A stretch of 27,868 nt of DNA from a virus. Location: positions 1 through 27,868 of the IMG/VR virus record IMGVR_UViG_3300050023_000010; one strand, 5' to 3'. A program made the translations under genes and the position numbers. The notes beneath the pieces were generated by a model. It did not search any database and was not told where the DNA came from. It saw only the letters and a list, made by a program, of their open reading frames with translations. Of this stretch, positions 3,185 through 10,661 are shown in pieces. Every line of letters begins with the position of its first letter. Positions within the stretch are counted from its first letter, which is position 1.

Positions 3185-3490
3185 TTATCCTTCATACACT
3201 GCCAGTTCAACTGGCTCGGTGCAATATTCTTTATGAAACGTATGAATGTAACAATATCTGGTTGCGTAGTGCTCTGTGTACCTCGAGTCATCAAGCAGCT
3301 TGCCGCATCCGCAATCGCAGTAATGTACTTCTCCGTTGGCTCTTTCTTCCCTGAAGCGAGGAGTTGCCTTTATGATTTGAATGCCTTCTTCCTTACGCTT
3401 CCAATACTGCTTCCTGCCATGCTCACGCTTGTAAACCAGTCTGTAAGCATCACGTGCCTTGCGTTCCTCATCAGTAAGCTTTCTGCTCAT
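3185..3490 (-). CDS. Small basic zinc-binding protein, possibly nuclease-related
   Basis: A 101-residue product. The N-terminal half is strongly basic and helical (many Lys/Arg/Glu). The C-terminal half has CDCGCGKLL and then CYIHTFHKEYC, a Cys/His layout suggesting one metal site. An HNH or homing-endonuclease-associated zinc domain is possible, but I see no clear HNH catalytic triad. The start is taken at the ATG at 3490 because the GGAGG is 5 bases upstream of it and only 2 bases from the GTG at 3493. It lies between the NADAR gene and recA with almost no spacing, so it is part of the same transcription unit. Confidence 0.62.
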   Translation of the reverse strand: MSRKLTDEERKARDAYRLVYKREHGRKQYWKRKEEGIQIIKATPRFREERANGEVHYCDCGCGKLLDDSRYTEHYATRYCYIHTFHKEYCTEPVELAVYEG

Positions 3491-3499
3491 CACTCCCTC

Positions 3500-3931
3500 C
3501 TACGGCATAGGTATAGCACGTGCAAACGATCTATATGCCATAAGCAACCTACCTAGCCAATTCTCTCCAACTCCATCACACTTTCCCCAAAACGTATCAT
3601 GCCACATATTACCTTCGACCAATTCTTGATTGCCAGTTGCTACAAGTTTCGCTCTAAGATCACGATTCTGATCAAATTTCATGCTAATGACCATTCTCAT
3701 GTGATCAACTTTAGTTCTTTGCCAATCCTCTTGGCATGCAAAGCGTCTGCCAAGACGTTTAGCTTCTCCAGGTGTATATGCTTGACGAATGCGTTCAGAG
3801 TCTTCATAGGTAGCACATTTTAGCGATTGATACAAATGTTCTGCCGTAGGATATATGGCACCGGCATATATAATTGGTGATGGGTAAAAGTTTGATAAGA
3901 ATCTGTACTCGCCTTGAAATTCAGCTATCAT
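3500..3931 (-). CDS. NADAR / YbiA-like N-glycosidase
   Basis: A 143-residue protein with the NADAR signature throughout: FQGEYRFLSNFYPSPI at residues 5-20, YPTAEHLYQSLK near 27-38 (conserved Glu-His), a WxxxK segment in the middle and WLGRLLMAYR near the end. NADAR-family enzymes act on N-glycosidic bonds of ADP-ribose or riboflavin-pathway intermediates; some members remove ADP-ribose from guanine in DNA. In a phage this could reverse host ADP-ribosylation defence or handle NAD metabolites. The ATG overlaps the SbcD stop (ATGA). Length is normal for a stand-alone NADAR domain. The family call is strong; the substrate is inference. Confidence 0.88.
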   Translation of the reverse strand: MIAEFQGEYRFLSNFYPSPIIYAGAIYPTAEHLYQSLKCATYEDSERIRQAYTPGEAKRLGRRFACQEDWQRTKVDHMRMVISMKFDQNRDLRAKLVATGNQELVEGNMWHDTFWGKCDGVGENWLGRLLMAYRSFARAIPMP

Positions 3932-5985: not shown

Positions 5986-6999
5986 TTACCGTCTGGTTGA
6001 CCGACGTGCGAGCCGGGAAGCTACCTCACGTTTGGCAGGTGCAACTTCCTCTTCAGGATCGTCCTCAACGACTTCTTCTTTGGCTTTGCGTGCCACAGGA
6101 GCAGGAGTCGCTGCCTTGCGTGCCGGAGTGCGAACTGGCTCTTCGTCAGGATCTTCTTCCGTAGTTTCAGCCGTATTATCGTCCTCGCCCATCAGGTCGC
6201 CGTCCAGTTCCATTTCTCGGCTGATGCGGTCGTAAGGCATAACCCACACAGCATGTTCGCCAGCCAGTTCCTTGTCTTCTTCCGGATCATCAGATACTTC
6301 TACGTACGACAGGTCTTTGGCTTTAGCCATCCATTCCAAGATAAGGTTTGGATCCTCTGATACAGGACTGCTCTTGCGACGAGGAGTCACGCTATATTCA
6401 GTCTCAAAGCCTGTGCCAGAGCGTTCAACCGTAATGTCCAGGCCATCGGCCAGGTCAGTGATATCGCCATAGTCCGGATCGGAGATGATTGACTGAATGG
6501 CAGTGAAAATCTTGACGCCAGGAGTGAAGATCTTGGGACCAGCCTTGTCATCGCCACGCACGATGATGTTCATCCAGAAGGCTTTCCGCAAGCCTAACTC
6601 TTTGGCAAGTGCCTTGGAAGCCTTATCGCCTTTCCACAGGTCGCCGGTCAGGTCGCACACAGGGCAGTCCAACTGTCCTTCAGACGTGAATTTCGGGCAG
6701 TAGCAGTGCTTCTTGCCGTCAGGAGGGAAGGAGTGCTTGCCGACAGGTTGGAAGAAGTATTCCATTTCGCCATGAGGCTCTACCACGAACTCTGTATCCT
6801 TGCCGGTCTCCGGATCAACCATCACAAAGGACAGTTCTTCCTTGCCAATCTCAGGCAAGATGCGAATGATGGATTTGCCCTCTTTTGGGCTCCAGAAGCC
6901 AGCGCCACCGCCACCCAGATCGACATTCTTCAGCTTGGCTTGCATCTTGGCAAGTCGTTCGGCACGAGACATTTTGGTTGGTACAACAGGTTTAGGCAT
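5986..6999 (-). CDS. gp32-like single-stranded DNA-binding protein
   Basis: A 337-residue protein with T4 gp32-like order. A basic N terminus (MSRAERLAKMQAKLK) resembles the cooperativity segment. The OB-fold core contains a zinc-binding cluster HCYCPKF then CPVC near residues 97-117, equivalent to the gp32 His/Cys3 site. A long acidic tail runs from about 245 (EEDPDEEP, VVEDDPEEE) and ends in a basic RLARRSTRR. The core should coat single-stranded DNA during replication and recombination, and the acidic tail recruits partner proteins. The low-complexity tail resembles that of the 16774-17640 protein. AAAGGAAAT precedes the ATG. It has its own terminator and a highly structured leader, consistent with high, controlled expression. 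Confidence 0.85.
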   Translation of the reverse strand: MPKPVVPTKMSRAERLAKMQAKLKNVDLGGGGAGFWSPKEGKSIIRILPEIGKEELSFVMVDPETGKDTEFVVEPHGEMEYFFQPVGKHSFPPDGKKHCYCPKFTSEGQLDCPVCDLTGDLWKGDKASKALAKELGLRKAFWMNIIVRGDDKAGPKIFTPGVKIFTAIQSIISDPDYGDITDLADGLDITVERSGTGFETEYSVTPRRKSSPVSEDPNLILEWMAKAKDLSYVEVSDDPEEDKELAGEHAVWVMPYDRISREMELDGDLMGEDDNTAETTEEDPDEEPVRTPARKAATPAPVARKAKEEVVEDDPEEEVAPAKREVASRLARRSTRR

Positions 7000-7044
7000 T
7001 TCAATTTCCTTTCAAGCAATTAAGTAAGTTAGTAAGGTAGCGAC

Positions 7045-7063
7045 TGAGTTGGTAAGTAACTCA
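7045..7063 (-). promoter_or_regulatory. Small hairpin in SSB leader
   Basis: Minus-strand TGAGTT (7063-7058) pairs with AACTCA (7050-7045) around a 7-base loop ACTTACC. It lies about 45 bases upstream of the SSB start, immediately after the larger folded RNA block. It is too short to stand alone as evidence but continues the series of helices in this leader. Confidence 0.45.
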
Positions 7064-7291
7064 AGCAAATAGTTGCAGAGAGCAGGCTAATTGGCTGTAG
7101 GATAAAAATTCTCCAACACAAGGAGTTAAGCTGGTGAACAGTGCCTCGCTCAGAATGCCTGTAGTTTTCACCGACCTACGGTTGAGACTCTCTGCACGTG
7201 ATGCCGAACGCATCGGATCACGCAAGGCTAATCCAAGACGAGGGAGACGTCCTGGATTAGCCATGCCTGACACGATACTATAAGCAATCAT
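7061..7291 (-). CDS. Doubtful 76-residue reading frame across the structured RNA
   Basis: The ATG at 7291 overlaps the stop of the 26-residue microprotein (ATGA), which would allow coupled translation. The product (MIAYSIVSGMANPGRLPRLG start) has no recognisable domain, is rich in Ser/Arg/Leu, and has no membrane segment. The same DNA forms several long, nested helices that would by themselves dictate the sequence, so the frame may be fortuitous. No independent ribosome binding site is visible apart from the GAGGAAGC inside the microprotein gene. I keep it as an alternative reading, less likely than a non-coding role. Confidence 0.3.
   Translation of the reverse strand: MIAYSIVSGMANPGRLPRLGLALRDPMRSASRAESLNRRSVKTTGILSEALFTSLTPCVGEFLSYSQLACSLQLFA
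7075..7262 (-). ncRNA. Putative structured RNA upstream of SSB gene
   Basis: Read on the minus strand, five helices can be drawn. Hairpin A pairs 7262-7248 with 7240-7226 (15 bp, one G-U pair, 7-base loop). Hairpin B pairs 7222-7213 with 7207-7197 (10 bp, a single bulged C at 7203, 5-base loop). Outer helix P1 pairs GCAGAGAG (7195-7188) with CTCTCTGC (7082-7075). Inside it, P2 pairs 7179-7175 with 7101-7097 and encloses P3 (7172-7167 with 7138-7133, GGTGAA/TTCACC) and hairpin P4 (7125-7122 with 7114-7111). The wobble in hairpin A is a mismatch on the plus strand, which favours minus-strand RNA. No known riboswitch, group I intron, RNase P or hammerhead signature is recognisable. It may be an autogenous SSB operator or a free small RNA. 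Confidence 0.6.
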
Positions 7292-7368
7292 TTATGCTTC
7301 CTCTCATATAACCAGGTTAGCAACAACGCAATTCCTAAAACTGCTGAACCAAAGAATAATACTGACAT
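7288..7368 (-). CDS. 26-residue single-pass membrane microprotein
   Basis: A short frame starting at ATG 7368, preceded by AAAGGTGAGA, and ending in TGA. The product begins MSVLFFGSAVLGIALLLTWL, an uninterrupted hydrophobic helix, and ends with the charged tail YERKHK. This is the classic plan of a phage membrane microprotein with its positive end in the cytoplasm. It lies between two RNA-structured segments, with its ribosome binding site directly after hairpin 7438-7380. Its function is unknown; small phage membrane proteins of this kind include lysis, exclusion and membrane-remodelling factors. No homolog is recognised. Confidence 0.6.
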   Translation of the reverse strand: MSVLFFGSAVLGIALLLTWLYERKHK

Positions 7369-7379
7369 TTCTCACCTTT

Positions 7380-7438
7380 AGGAAGGCAACCTCAGCTATA
7401 GAACCTATATCTAGAACTTTTACTGCGATTGCCTTCCT
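7380..7438 (-). promoter_or_regulatory. Long leader hairpin before microprotein gene
   Basis: Minus-strand AGGAAGGCAA (7438-7429) pairs perfectly with TTGCCTTCCT (7389-7380). Within the 39-base loop a second hairpin forms (TATAG-GTT-CTATA), with a further CAG/CTG pairing outside it. It starts 2 bases after motif copy A and ends just before the AAAGGTGAG ribosome binding site. There is no T-run, so it is more likely a translational or RNA-stability element than a terminator. Confidence 0.6.
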
Positions 7439-7440
7439 AC

Positions 7441-7453
7441 CATACTAAACTTG
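7441..7453 (-). promoter_or_regulatory. Copy A of the CAAGTTTAGTATG motif
   Basis: An exact 13/13 copy on the minus strand, 13 bases after the stop of the 7466-8017 gene and directly ahead of the structured SSB leader. As a promoter it would drive the microprotein and SSB genes. Confidence 0.65.
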
Positions 7454-7465
7454 CAACCAAAATTT

Positions 7466-8017
7466 TTAACGTGCCAATTTCCGTGCCTTGCGCTCTGACA
7501 TGACAGTCTTGACATTCTCGACTGCATCGGTCAACTGCTTCTCATTCGTATGCATCGCTGTCTGATCATATTCATGACGTTTCCATGCACCTAAGGACAC
7601 AAGCATCGAGGCACGTTGATCCAAGGCAGCCACAATGGATTTCAGCAGTTTGAAGTCATAACGTGTGAGCAATTCTACCTCACATTTCTTGATATGCTTC
7701 TCATCCGACATGATGGTAGCACGGATGGTTGCCTCTGTAAATTTCTGCCCAGTCTTGGCGTATTCATCCCGATAGTTCAGGTCAGCGCCAGCTTCATCAA
7801 CTTCCTTGTTAAACGATGCCTTGCTGGCAACGTCTTCAGCCATGGTAGCAATCACAGTGAAGAAGCCATATATGCTGGCCTGTTGTGCCATCTCTTTTGA
7901 TAAATCGTTCTCATCTATGGCAAAGAGTTCTAGGATATCAAAATCCTTGTACCCACCTCCTGCCATGCGCAGCCGTACTGTCGTACCTTCAATTGACTTT
8001 ACTATACTGTCGGTCAT
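7466..8017 (-). CDS. Unknown protein coupled to DNA polymerase (183 aa)
   Basis: I do not recognise this family. The product is mostly soluble and helical, with an N-terminal beta-like segment (VKSIEGTTVRLRMAGGGYKDF). A central helical region follows (KEMAQQASIYGFFTVIATMAEDVASK), then a basic C terminus ending SERKARKLAR. No Cys motif, Walker motif or signal peptide is present. It begins 29 bases inside the end of the polymerase gene, with GGAGGGAAC before its ATG, and precedes the SSB gene. Its place between polymerase and SSB suggests a replication accessory role, for example a mediator or clamp-like factor, but nothing in the sequence proves this. Confidence 0.7.
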   Translation of the reverse strand: MTDSIVKSIEGTTVRLRMAGGGYKDFDILELFAIDENDLSKEMAQQASIYGFFTVIATMAEDVASKASFNKEVDEAGADLNYRDEYAKTGQKFTEATIRATIMSDEKHIKKCEVELLTRYDFKLLKSIVAALDQRASMLVSLGAWKRHEYDQTAMHTNEKQLTDAVENVKTVMSERKARKLAR

Positions 8018-10661
8018 ATTGTTCCCTCCATAATTCTAGTGAAATTTCGTTGCCGTAGTGTGTACCTACATCCACCTCTGCCATGAGCGGTGACTTAAGC
8101 CATGAGAAGTCTATCCGTGGCATGTAAATCTTGGCATAGGAAGCCACGTTTGTCATTACATCACAGCACAAGTCTGCAAATGGCACAATCTCATAGCGAG
8201 GACAGTCGCCTAATAGCGAGTCATGAACGGTATTGACAAGCATGCTTGCCATCGAGCGTTCCTGCATCTTCTTATCAAGGATGACTCCGGCTATCAGCAA
8301 TATCTCGCTGGCACCCGATTGCACTGGCATGTTTACAGCCACACGTCTATCCTTGTTACGCTTGCCTTGATCAGACTTGCTGTTGATGTAAGGTAAGTGT
8401 TCCCTGCGACCGAATGGACTTTCTATGTAACCATGATCCTCAGCAAACTCCTGAGTCCATTCCCGATACTCAAGCACCTCAGGAAAGCTGTCGTAGTAAA
8501 TCTTGATTGTATCCTCAGCATCATCTAAGTCCACGTCATATAGTCTGTGTAGCGTATAGGCATCCCCTCCATAAAGCAATGTCCAGTTCGTCCATTTATA
8601 GCGATAGCGAGTAGGCTTATCAACCTGCTCGAGGATCTTACTTACTTCCTTAGTATTCTCAGCAGCATGAGCCACGTCATTCTTGGTAAGGTAGTGAAGG
8701 CTCAAGGCAGCAACCATTTTGTGGAAGTCTAGGCCCGACTTGTGAATATCAATCATAAGCTGACAGTTAGCCAGCGATGCGAACACACGCAACTCCATAC
8801 CTGAATAGTCAGCAGCTACCAAAGCTCCGGTATCGAAATCGTCGTCATTGCCGGCTCGATCCCACCAATCTGAATGCGTAAATATGTTCTTGATTGGCAG
8901 CGTCTCAAGAATGGTTCCCGGCTCCTTTTCAGGAGTAGGAATGTTTTGAGCGTTAAAAGGTTGTGATGATGATAGTCTACCAGTACGTGTACCATGCTGA
9001 TTATAGGTTGGATGAACACGACCGTCGTTTGATTCCCACTCGCCATTAGCAGCAGGATTTAGGTACGTGCTCAACATCTTGTTCATCATCTTGTACATGC
9101 GAATGTGACCCAAGATGGGATAATCAGGCTCATATTTTCTGTAAGCCTTGCCTGAGGTAGTAGGCTTGCCAGTCTTCTTAGACGTGCCAACCACCGGCAT
9201 CTTATAGTAATCAAAATACAACTCGGATAATTGCATGAAGCTGTTAGGATTGAACTTGAAGACGTTCTTCTTAACAGCACGCTTGCTCTTAGAAGCCTTA
9301 GCCTTGTAAGCACCATCCAAAACTGTTTGCTTCTTGGCAGTTATCTTCTGCACGTGCTTGTCGTCAAGAATTGCTTCGTATTCCTCGCCTTGAAGCATCT
9401 TGTATATGCAAGAATACCTCTTAGCCACGTACCTATCAACCAACAGGCCATTGCTTTGGATCGTGCACAGCATGTTGCTTGTTGGAATGATTACATCTTC
9501 GTACAGAATCTTCTGCTTATCTGAAAGCTGCGGAAGGAACAGGTCATTGATTAGCCAGGTGGCTTTAGCATCCAAACCACCATACTTCAGAAGCTTGTCA
9601 AGAGGGATAAATGCATAGCTGCCACCACGCTCAGGATCAGCCTCGGGATGCCCACGCTTGTAATCTTCGATCTCCCGGTCATAATCATACATGTTCAGAT
9701 TGACGGCAGCCAGATGCTTCAAGCCATGAATGCCTTTCATGCTATTCAGAAGATGGCTTATCAACATGGTGTCGCCACCAATCTTGAACTGCGTTCCTAG
9801 CAGTCCGTTGGTGAACATGATGTCAAACTTAGTGTTGTGACCTATCAGCTTGTTATCGCCTGAGGAGTGCTGTCCCAGCACAGTCTTGATTGTTTCCATC
9901 ACCAAGGCATACTCTTCGTCAGTCCACCACGACTCAGGATGATCTAAAGGCAGCGACCAGCAGCGTTCCTTGATGGCAAAGGATATTGATAAGATTGCAG
10001 ATATGTCCTTGAACGGATCAAGCGATGACGTCTCGATGTCCACCACGATTTCAGGCTCTTTACGCAACGTGTTAGCCATAAGCAGCACGTCATCAGTCGT
10101 TTCAGGAAAATTGTATTCCCAAGCATCCTTCTCTTCCGCATCATCCAAAGCCATGACCATAGCCTGAAGCCATTCGTCTGTCTTACTAGCGTCCCTGAGG
10201 ATATAAGCTGGATGATACAAAGGCACGTACTTGATGCCATCCCTATTGATGACAGATCCGTTCCAGTTGGATATGCCTGACTCGCCAAGAATGCCATTAA
10301 GAGGACTGTTTCCCATCAGCATCACGATACGAGGCTGATAGTAATCAATATCGTCGACAGCAAACTGACGGCAAGCCATGATGGCTTTCTTGGATACGAC
10401 GTTATCAGGAGGACGGCAGCGTACCACGTTCGTAAAGGCAACAGTGCTAATATCCACCTCGGCTGCGTCGAGTACTTCCCTTAGAAGCTTGCCAGCCTTG
10501 CCTACGAATGGCTCGCCTAACTTGTCCTCTATTTCACCTGGCGCCTCACCCACGATCAATATATCAGGCTCGTCTGAGCCAGATGGCTCCATGAACGGCG
10601 AGGAGCATCCCTTCCACAAGCCACAGGACAGACAAGTCGGATTTGTTTCAGAAGGCTTCAT
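7989..10661 (-). CDS. Family 4 uracil-DNA glycosylase fused to family A DNA polymerase
   Basis: An 890-residue two-part protein. Residues 1-180 are a family 4 UDG: Cys10/Cys13 and Cys82/Cys97 in 4Fe-4S spacing, GEAPGEIEDKLGEPFVGKAG at 38-57, NVVRCRPPDN, and HPAYIL with His150. Residues from about 200 are Pol I-like. The 3'-5' exonuclease shows VVDIETSSLD, LIGHNTKFD and a YGGLDAKATWL region. Polymerase motif A is AADYSGMELR, motif B is RYRYKWTNWTLLYGG and motif C is VHDSLL, where Ser replaces the usual Glu after the catalytic Asp. It lacks a 5' nuclease domain; that activity is encoded at 1203-2150. As I recall, SPO1-type phages with hydroxymethyluracil DNA have a comparable fusion. No clear ribosome binding site precedes the ATG. 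Confidence 0.93.
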   Translation of the reverse strand: MKPSETNPTCLSCGLWKGCSSPFMEPSGSDEPDILIVGEAPGEIEDKLGEPFVGKAGKLLREVLDAAEVDISTVAFTNVVRCRPPDNVVSKKAIMACRQFAVDDIDYYQPRIVMLMGNSPLNGILGESGISNWNGSVINRDGIKYVPLYHPAYILRDASKTDEWLQAMVMALDDAEEKDAWEYNFPETTDDVLLMANTLRKEPEIVVDIETSSLDPFKDISAILSISFAIKERCWSLPLDHPESWWTDEEYALVMETIKTVLGQHSSGDNKLIGHNTKFDIMFTNGLLGTQFKIGGDTMLISHLLNSMKGIHGLKHLAAVNLNMYDYDREIEDYKRGHPEADPERGGSYAFIPLDKLLKYGGLDAKATWLINDLFLPQLSDKQKILYEDVIIPTSNMLCTIQSNGLLVDRYVAKRYSCIYKMLQGEEYEAILDDKHVQKITAKKQTVLDGAYKAKASKSKRAVKKNVFKFNPNSFMQLSELYFDYYKMPVVGTSKKTGKPTTSGKAYRKYEPDYPILGHIRMYKMMNKMLSTYLNPAANGEWESNDGRVHPTYNQHGTRTGRLSSSQPFNAQNIPTPEKEPGTILETLPIKNIFTHSDWWDRAGNDDDFDTGALVAADYSGMELRVFASLANCQLMIDIHKSGLDFHKMVAALSLHYLTKNDVAHAAENTKEVSKILEQVDKPTRYRYKWTNWTLLYGGDAYTLHRLYDVDLDDAEDTIKIYYDSFPEVLEYREWTQEFAEDHGYIESPFGRREHLPYINSKSDQGKRNKDRRVAVNMPVQSGASEILLIAGVILDKKMQERSMASMLVNTVHDSLLGDCPRYEIVPFADLCCDVMTNVASYAKIYMPRIDFSWLKSPLMAEVDVGTHYGNEISLELWREQYDRQYSKVN

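Follow-up and report, generated by a model that had tools for sequence, protein, structure and literature searches.

The SSB leader in the window (the whole 27,868-nt stretch of an IMG/VR virus contig analyzed here) contains a folded RNA element. The fold is real, and its base pairing is maintained across three related phages. By analogy with phage T4 gene 32, we tentatively regard this segment as a lineage-specific, cis-acting folded leader that may act as an autogenous translational operator of SSB, similar in kind to the T4 element but not homologous to it, a reading that we favor with less than even confidence.

The SSB gene and its leader

Replication genes of the window lie on the minus strand and include those for DNA polymerase A (7989-10661), a 183-aa protein (7466-8017), SSB (5986-6999), a methyltransferase-like protein and an SbcD-like protein. 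The SSB matches phrog_1192 (E 3e-34) and the gp32 family PF08804 (E 6e-16), and profile comparison aligns it with the RB69 gp32 structures 2a1k and 2atq; by these sequence criteria it is a gp32-family protein and a relative of T4 gp32. Polymerase and SSB share 26-32% identity with their counterparts in SPO1-like phages, a distant relationship.

A putative phage promoter motif, TGCAAGTTTAGTATGGTAG, is found at 7437-7455 on the minus strand and would mark the start of the SSB leader transcript. The motif, CAAGTTTAGTATnnTAG, occurs seven times in the window with no more than three mismatches, as against 0.09 copies expected by chance; all seven copies (including those at 7437, 11800, 12436 and 19003) are on the minus strand. 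The same motif lies directly past the upstream gene in L002, L003, L010, L015, L018, L022 and other related contigs. The leader would thus extend from this motif to the SSB start at 6999. Its promoter-proximal part is predicted to fold into a hairpin, H0 (7380-7439, minus), matched by a hairpin at the equivalent position in L004 and L018. Downstream of H0 lies a 26-aa ORF (7288-7368, minus) specifying a hydrophobic peptide, MSVLFFGSAVLGIALLLTWLYERKHK, whose stop codon overlaps the next start (ATGA). The C-terminus of this peptide, TWLYERKHK, is identical in L002; no such peptide was found in the L003 leader. Searches revealed no tRNA in the window, no terminator-like site between 6900 and 8100 and no internal promoter for the folded element, the promoter motif being upstream of the entire leader. 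These results lend no support to an independent phage ncRNA with a promoter and terminator of its own.

A stable fold on the minus strand

The minus strand of the 7030-7280 region is unusually stable (z = -6.5; 0 of 200 shuffled sequences were equally stable), and the 220-nt segment 7041-7260 on this strand ranked first in stability among 504 segments in a scan of both strands. The dominant feature is a long hairpin, H1 (7210-7278, minus), with 28 pairs and a UCUCCCU loop. H1 alone is highly stable both in the window (z = -9.4) and in L002 (-9.2). The corresponding values for the adjacent P1 domain (see below) are -2.0 in the window, -1.8 in L002 and -3.0 in L003, so that most of the thermodynamic signal comes from H1. 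The complete leader of L003 is unremarkable (z = -0.9 for 301 nt, -2.2 for 479 nt) and the case for this phage relies on matching helices instead.

An alternative 10-bp bulged hairpin, H2 (7197-7222, minus; arms 7213-7222 and 7197-7207), uses bases from the foot of H1, which makes the two hairpins mutually exclusive. The best fold has a free energy of -92.0 kcal/mol; forcing H2 yields -89.7 kcal/mol, that is, 2.3 kcal/mol above the best. The first-pass annotation, made from the sequence of the window, had described three helices one after another upstream of SSB. All three exist: its 15-bp hairpin (7226-7262) is the top of H1, its 10-bp hairpin is H2, and its 8-bp outer helix is P1. However, H2 competes with the base of H1 rather than following it, and P1 measures 9 bp.

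The same annotation had taken a G-U pair as a sign that the minus strand is the functional one. Folding energy by itself is no guide to the strand (z = -5.6 for minus, -5.3 for plus), but at five pair positions of H1 the window, L002 or both have G-U when read as minus-strand RNA, and neither sequence has an A-C mismatch in H1 that, read as plus-strand RNA, would turn into G-U. Wobble positions in H1 therefore favor a minus-strand RNA, and the strand argument holds through wobble pairs only.

Base pairing in related leaders

Searches with the SSB sequence identified homologous leaders in L002 (79% SSB identity) and L003 (56%), the latter sequence being present also in L006. Comparisons were thus made between three distinct sequences, or two (window and L002) in the case of H1. 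All 11 substitutions that separate the H1 sequences of the window and L002 are tolerated, leaving 28 of 29 possible pairs in the former and 29 of 29 in the latter. Three pairs are altered on both sides; substitutions put at random positions in the same number preserve pairing to this extent with P = 0.0008. The exposed loop is invariant between the two phages. H1 was not found in L003, nor is its loop shared there as part of such a hairpin.

On the SSB side of H1, the P1 helix encloses a domain common to all three leaders. Its 5' arm (7188-7196, minus) forms nine pairs with its 3' arm (7074-7082, minus); the helix is 9 bp long in each phage and five positions are altered on both sides. The probability of finding such a closing helix by chance is 0.03 to 0.07 in each phage. 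Within P1 lies the core (7149-7186, minus), consisting of P2 (7183-7186 with 7149-7152), P3 (7179-7182 with 7170-7173) and a possible pseudoknot helix (7174-7176 with 7163-7165), all on the minus strand. All 33 cells of the core alignment pair, with two double changes, as compared to 21-52% in slid controls. In P2, a C-G pair is replaced by G-C in L003; in P3, a G-C pair of the window is A-U in both L002 and L003. The pseudoknot helix (GGU/ACY) can form together with P3 in all three phages; it comprises 3 bp, one of which varies. The remainder of the domain is a variable arm (7083-7148, minus), unconserved in sequence and far shorter in L003. Between P1 and the RBS tract, a small hairpin, P5 (7044-7064, minus; UUGAG/CUCA), is again present in all three phages, with a U-A pair changed to C-G in L002. 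The compensatory changes that the first-pass annotation had suggested looking for are thus seen in H1, P1, P2, P3 and P5. With so few sequences (two or three), shuffle controls are weak, 43-58 of 500 shuffles scoring no lower than the actual alignments, so that the strength of the pairing case comes from the independent agreement of the helices.

The core motif, AACCnUAGGUnGGUG-N15-CUnAGCG, is present in the window, L002 and L003 and absent elsewhere in the viral and genome collections scanned, bacterial and archaeal genome contigs included. A covariance model of the core matched, among 51 sources, only the three phages from which it was built. No Rfam 15 family scored at the gathering threshold, a relaxed threshold giving weak matches at chance level only, and a DNA similarity search of phages and plasmids returned nothing significant. 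No other copies of the element were found in the sources searched. The homologues considered are those of the viral collection scanned; further ones may exist.

The tract preceding SSB and the ORF crossing the fold

The tract between the fold and the SSB start (7000-7043, minus) is poor in G and weakly structured; it carries UUACU-type repeats and the Shine-Dalgarno sequence AAGGA (7007-7011). The stretch lacking stable helices ahead of the AUG measures 45 nt in the window and 53 nt in L002. Similar tracts precede SSB in several relatives. When 29 SSB leaders were compared with 49 other starts, the sequence before the Shine-Dalgarno was lower in G (0.14 against 0.22, p = 1e-4) and enriched in YYACH repeats (p = 4e-5), in an exploratory comparison in which the repeat pattern was picked after viewing the sequences and the control starts were noisy. 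The SSB tract is also less paired than other starts. The uniform single-stranded spacing before the AUG that would be expected from an operator was not found; this distance varies widely among the relatives.

The folded element is traversed by a 76-aa ORF, ORF76 (7061-7291, minus), whose translation is uncertain. Its start overlaps the stop of the 26-aa ORF in the ATGA sequence, and its strong Shine-Dalgarno is conserved in L002. There the frame is open over 112 codons, a 48-nt indel between the two phages preserving it. Such openness would arise by chance with a probability of 0.015 (window) or 0.003 (L002). L003 has no equivalent of the start, though an open frame runs through its core as well (P 0.047). 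ORF76 ends 62 nt before SSB in the window and 1 nt before the SSB start in L002; its C-terminal part does not align, and protein family searches gave no match.

Between the window and L002, ORF76 shows a dN of 0.19 and a dS of 0.38 (dN/dS about 0.5), as compared to 0.17 and 0.53 (dN/dS 0.32) for a shifted frame over the same region and 0.10 and 1.21 (dN/dS 0.08) for SSB. No selection on amino acids exceeding the nucleotide constraint was detected in this comparison. Since the dS of ORF76 is one third of that of SSB, the nucleotides themselves are constrained. The substitution pattern thus points to a stronger constraint on nucleotides than on amino acids, and the frame may nonetheless be translated. 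The first-pass annotation had held that conservation of the 7061-7291 frame in place of pairing would speak against a structured RNA. The frame is indeed kept in L002, but pairing is clearly kept too, and amino-acid conservation does not go beyond what nucleotide constraint predicts.

The gap preceding SSB in related phages

In about 40 related contigs the polymerase gene is followed by the 183-aa gene and then by SSB, and the gap before SSB ranges from 41 to 1232 nt. In different relatives the gap contains simple hairpins, tRNA-like structures, a tRNA-Glu, a DUF3800-VI RNA or cargo genes, and the element of the window is one lineage-specific version among the structures at this site.

Structures resembling tRNA lie directly upstream of SSB in L016 (7721-7810), L021 (7943-8015), L023 (4377-4448), L024 (3887-3961), L019 (4101-4239) and L020 (5446-5557). 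They lack a normal D arm and display a GCCAGyy/rrCUGGC acceptor and a T arm; that of L024 begins at the promoter motif, and in L091 (near 137-161) only the T arm and the 3' acceptor strand are seen. ARAGORN calls no tRNA among them, and the L023 structure scores 25.4 with the Rfam tRNA model (cut-off 29). No sequence link was found between the window element and these tRNA-like leaders. The tRNA-Glu gene called by ARAGORN is located within the gap of L015 (3599-3687), and the DUF3800-VI RNA (RF02915) in the SSB leader of L021 (7884-7936). The SSB leaders of L015, L018 and L096, structured and otherwise differing in sequence, have the loop UCCUGCGAC in common. The leader element of L003 is separated from SSB by an Imm5-like gene (3229-3930), which includes a long alanine-rich run, and the RBS tract is duplicated. 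The duplication suggests that this gene is a later insertion.

Discussion

T4 gp32 nucleates on a folded 5' element, from which it spreads across the RBS along an unstructured tract of repeats (PMC535899, PMC3014915). The operator includes a pseudoknot that overlaps a reading frame (segG) and diverges fast between relatives (PMC535899). The leader described here shares with the gene 32 operators of T4, T2 and RB69 a gp32-family protein, a fold that precedes a repeat-bearing, weakly structured RBS region, the overlap of the fold with a reading frame (segG in T4, ORF76 here) and an unstructured tract exceeding 40 nt. It differs in its unrelated sequence, its larger multi-helix fold, its much shorter possible pseudoknot (second helix of 3 bp), the distance of the core from the AUG (approximately 150-190 nt, against about 40-70 in T4) and its repeats (UUACU/UCACU-like instead of UUAAA/UAAA); repression, moreover, is putative here. 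Gene 43 (DNA polymerase) of T4 and RB69 likewise encodes a replication protein, and its mRNA has an operator hairpin ahead of the RBS (PMC3014915); unlike the window leader, this operator is a single short hairpin near the RBS and its ligand is the polymerase.

On the operator model, SSB in excess would nucleate on the core fold (P1-P2-P3 and the possible pseudoknot), extend cooperatively along the repeats of the single-stranded tract and mask the Shine-Dalgarno sequence, halting its own translation once free SSB exceeds single-stranded DNA. Stability, covariation, the low synonymous divergence in ORF76, the strand of the wobble pairs, the type of SSB, the RBS tract and the T4-like layout all speak for such a role. 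As to the initial proposal of a T4 gp32-leader analogue or a new phage ncRNA, these features give partial support to its first half, whereas the position of the element between a putative promoter and a gene, with no terminator or internal promoter found, lends no support to a discrete RNA. Against the operator stand the distance of the core from the AUG and the present location of the L003 element, upstream of the Imm5-like gene; the duplicated RBS tract that came with this cargo gene fits an element originally adjoining SSB. The shortness of the pseudoknot helix, the departure from UUAAA repeats, the varying single-stranded gap before the AUG and the small set of three distinct sequences count against it as well. 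Furthermore, the element is missing from L004 and from most relatives that have a gp32-type SSB, and is therefore unnecessary for SSB regulation in general.

The leader might instead sense translation rather than SSB level. Ribosomes leaving the 26-aa peptide would restart at the overlapping ATG and read ORF76 through H1 and the core, switching between H1 and H2 or coupling to the SSB start. The stop-start overlap, the Shine-Dalgarno and peptide end conserved in L002, the openness of the frame and its preservation across the 48-nt indel, the small energy gap between H1 and H2 and the end of the L002 ORF next to SSB all agree with this scheme, which we nevertheless consider unlikely, if a serious contender: L003 has neither H1, peptide nor start, the dN/dS of ORF76 is higher than that of the shifted frame, its C-terminal part does not align, the ORF matches no protein family, and in the window it ends 62 nt short of SSB. 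The arrangement recalls leader-peptide attenuators in having a short ORF that overlaps alternative hairpins; it differs from them in having no terminator or diagnostic codon run, and in that the ORF start is missing in L003. A combined scheme, in which ORF translation and binding of the gp32-type SSB together select H1 or H2, the leader being one of several unrelated folded RNAs, tRNA-like ones included, that occupy the same gap in relatives, strikes us as distinctly improbable.

It is also rather unlikely that the fold acts independently of any ligand, either shielding the SSB mRNA against 5' decay or offering a nuclease a site for processing. In many related phages the same gap is structured too, often from directly after the promoter motif, by a simple hairpin (L004, L014 and L018; z = -4.8 to -5.4) or a tRNA-like structure; however, the window already has H0 at that position, and a plain stabilizer would have no need for a conserved core sequence. 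The compact, covarying structure and the exposed invariant loop could belong to a trans-acting small RNA freed from the leader and pairing, for example, through the CU-rich H1 loop, yet the lack of a surrounding terminator or promoter, of the loop as part of H1 in L003 and of other copies makes this very doubtful. Least probable of all is a DNA element (an origin or a protein site) or a mutational by-product, with palindromes kept perfect by replicative template switching. Such switching can imitate compensatory change in H1, the plus strand folds nearly as well and the locus is in a replication-gene cluster, but wobble pairs occur on the minus strand only and covariation extends to P1 and P2, whose arms are far apart.

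If the operator reading is confirmed, gp32-type autogenous control would exist far beyond the T4-like phages and could be built from different RNA folds. The gap before SSB would stand out as a site at which different folded leaders have been gained again and again within one phage group, and comparison of these varied leaders may allow one to test how gp32 selects its own mRNA.
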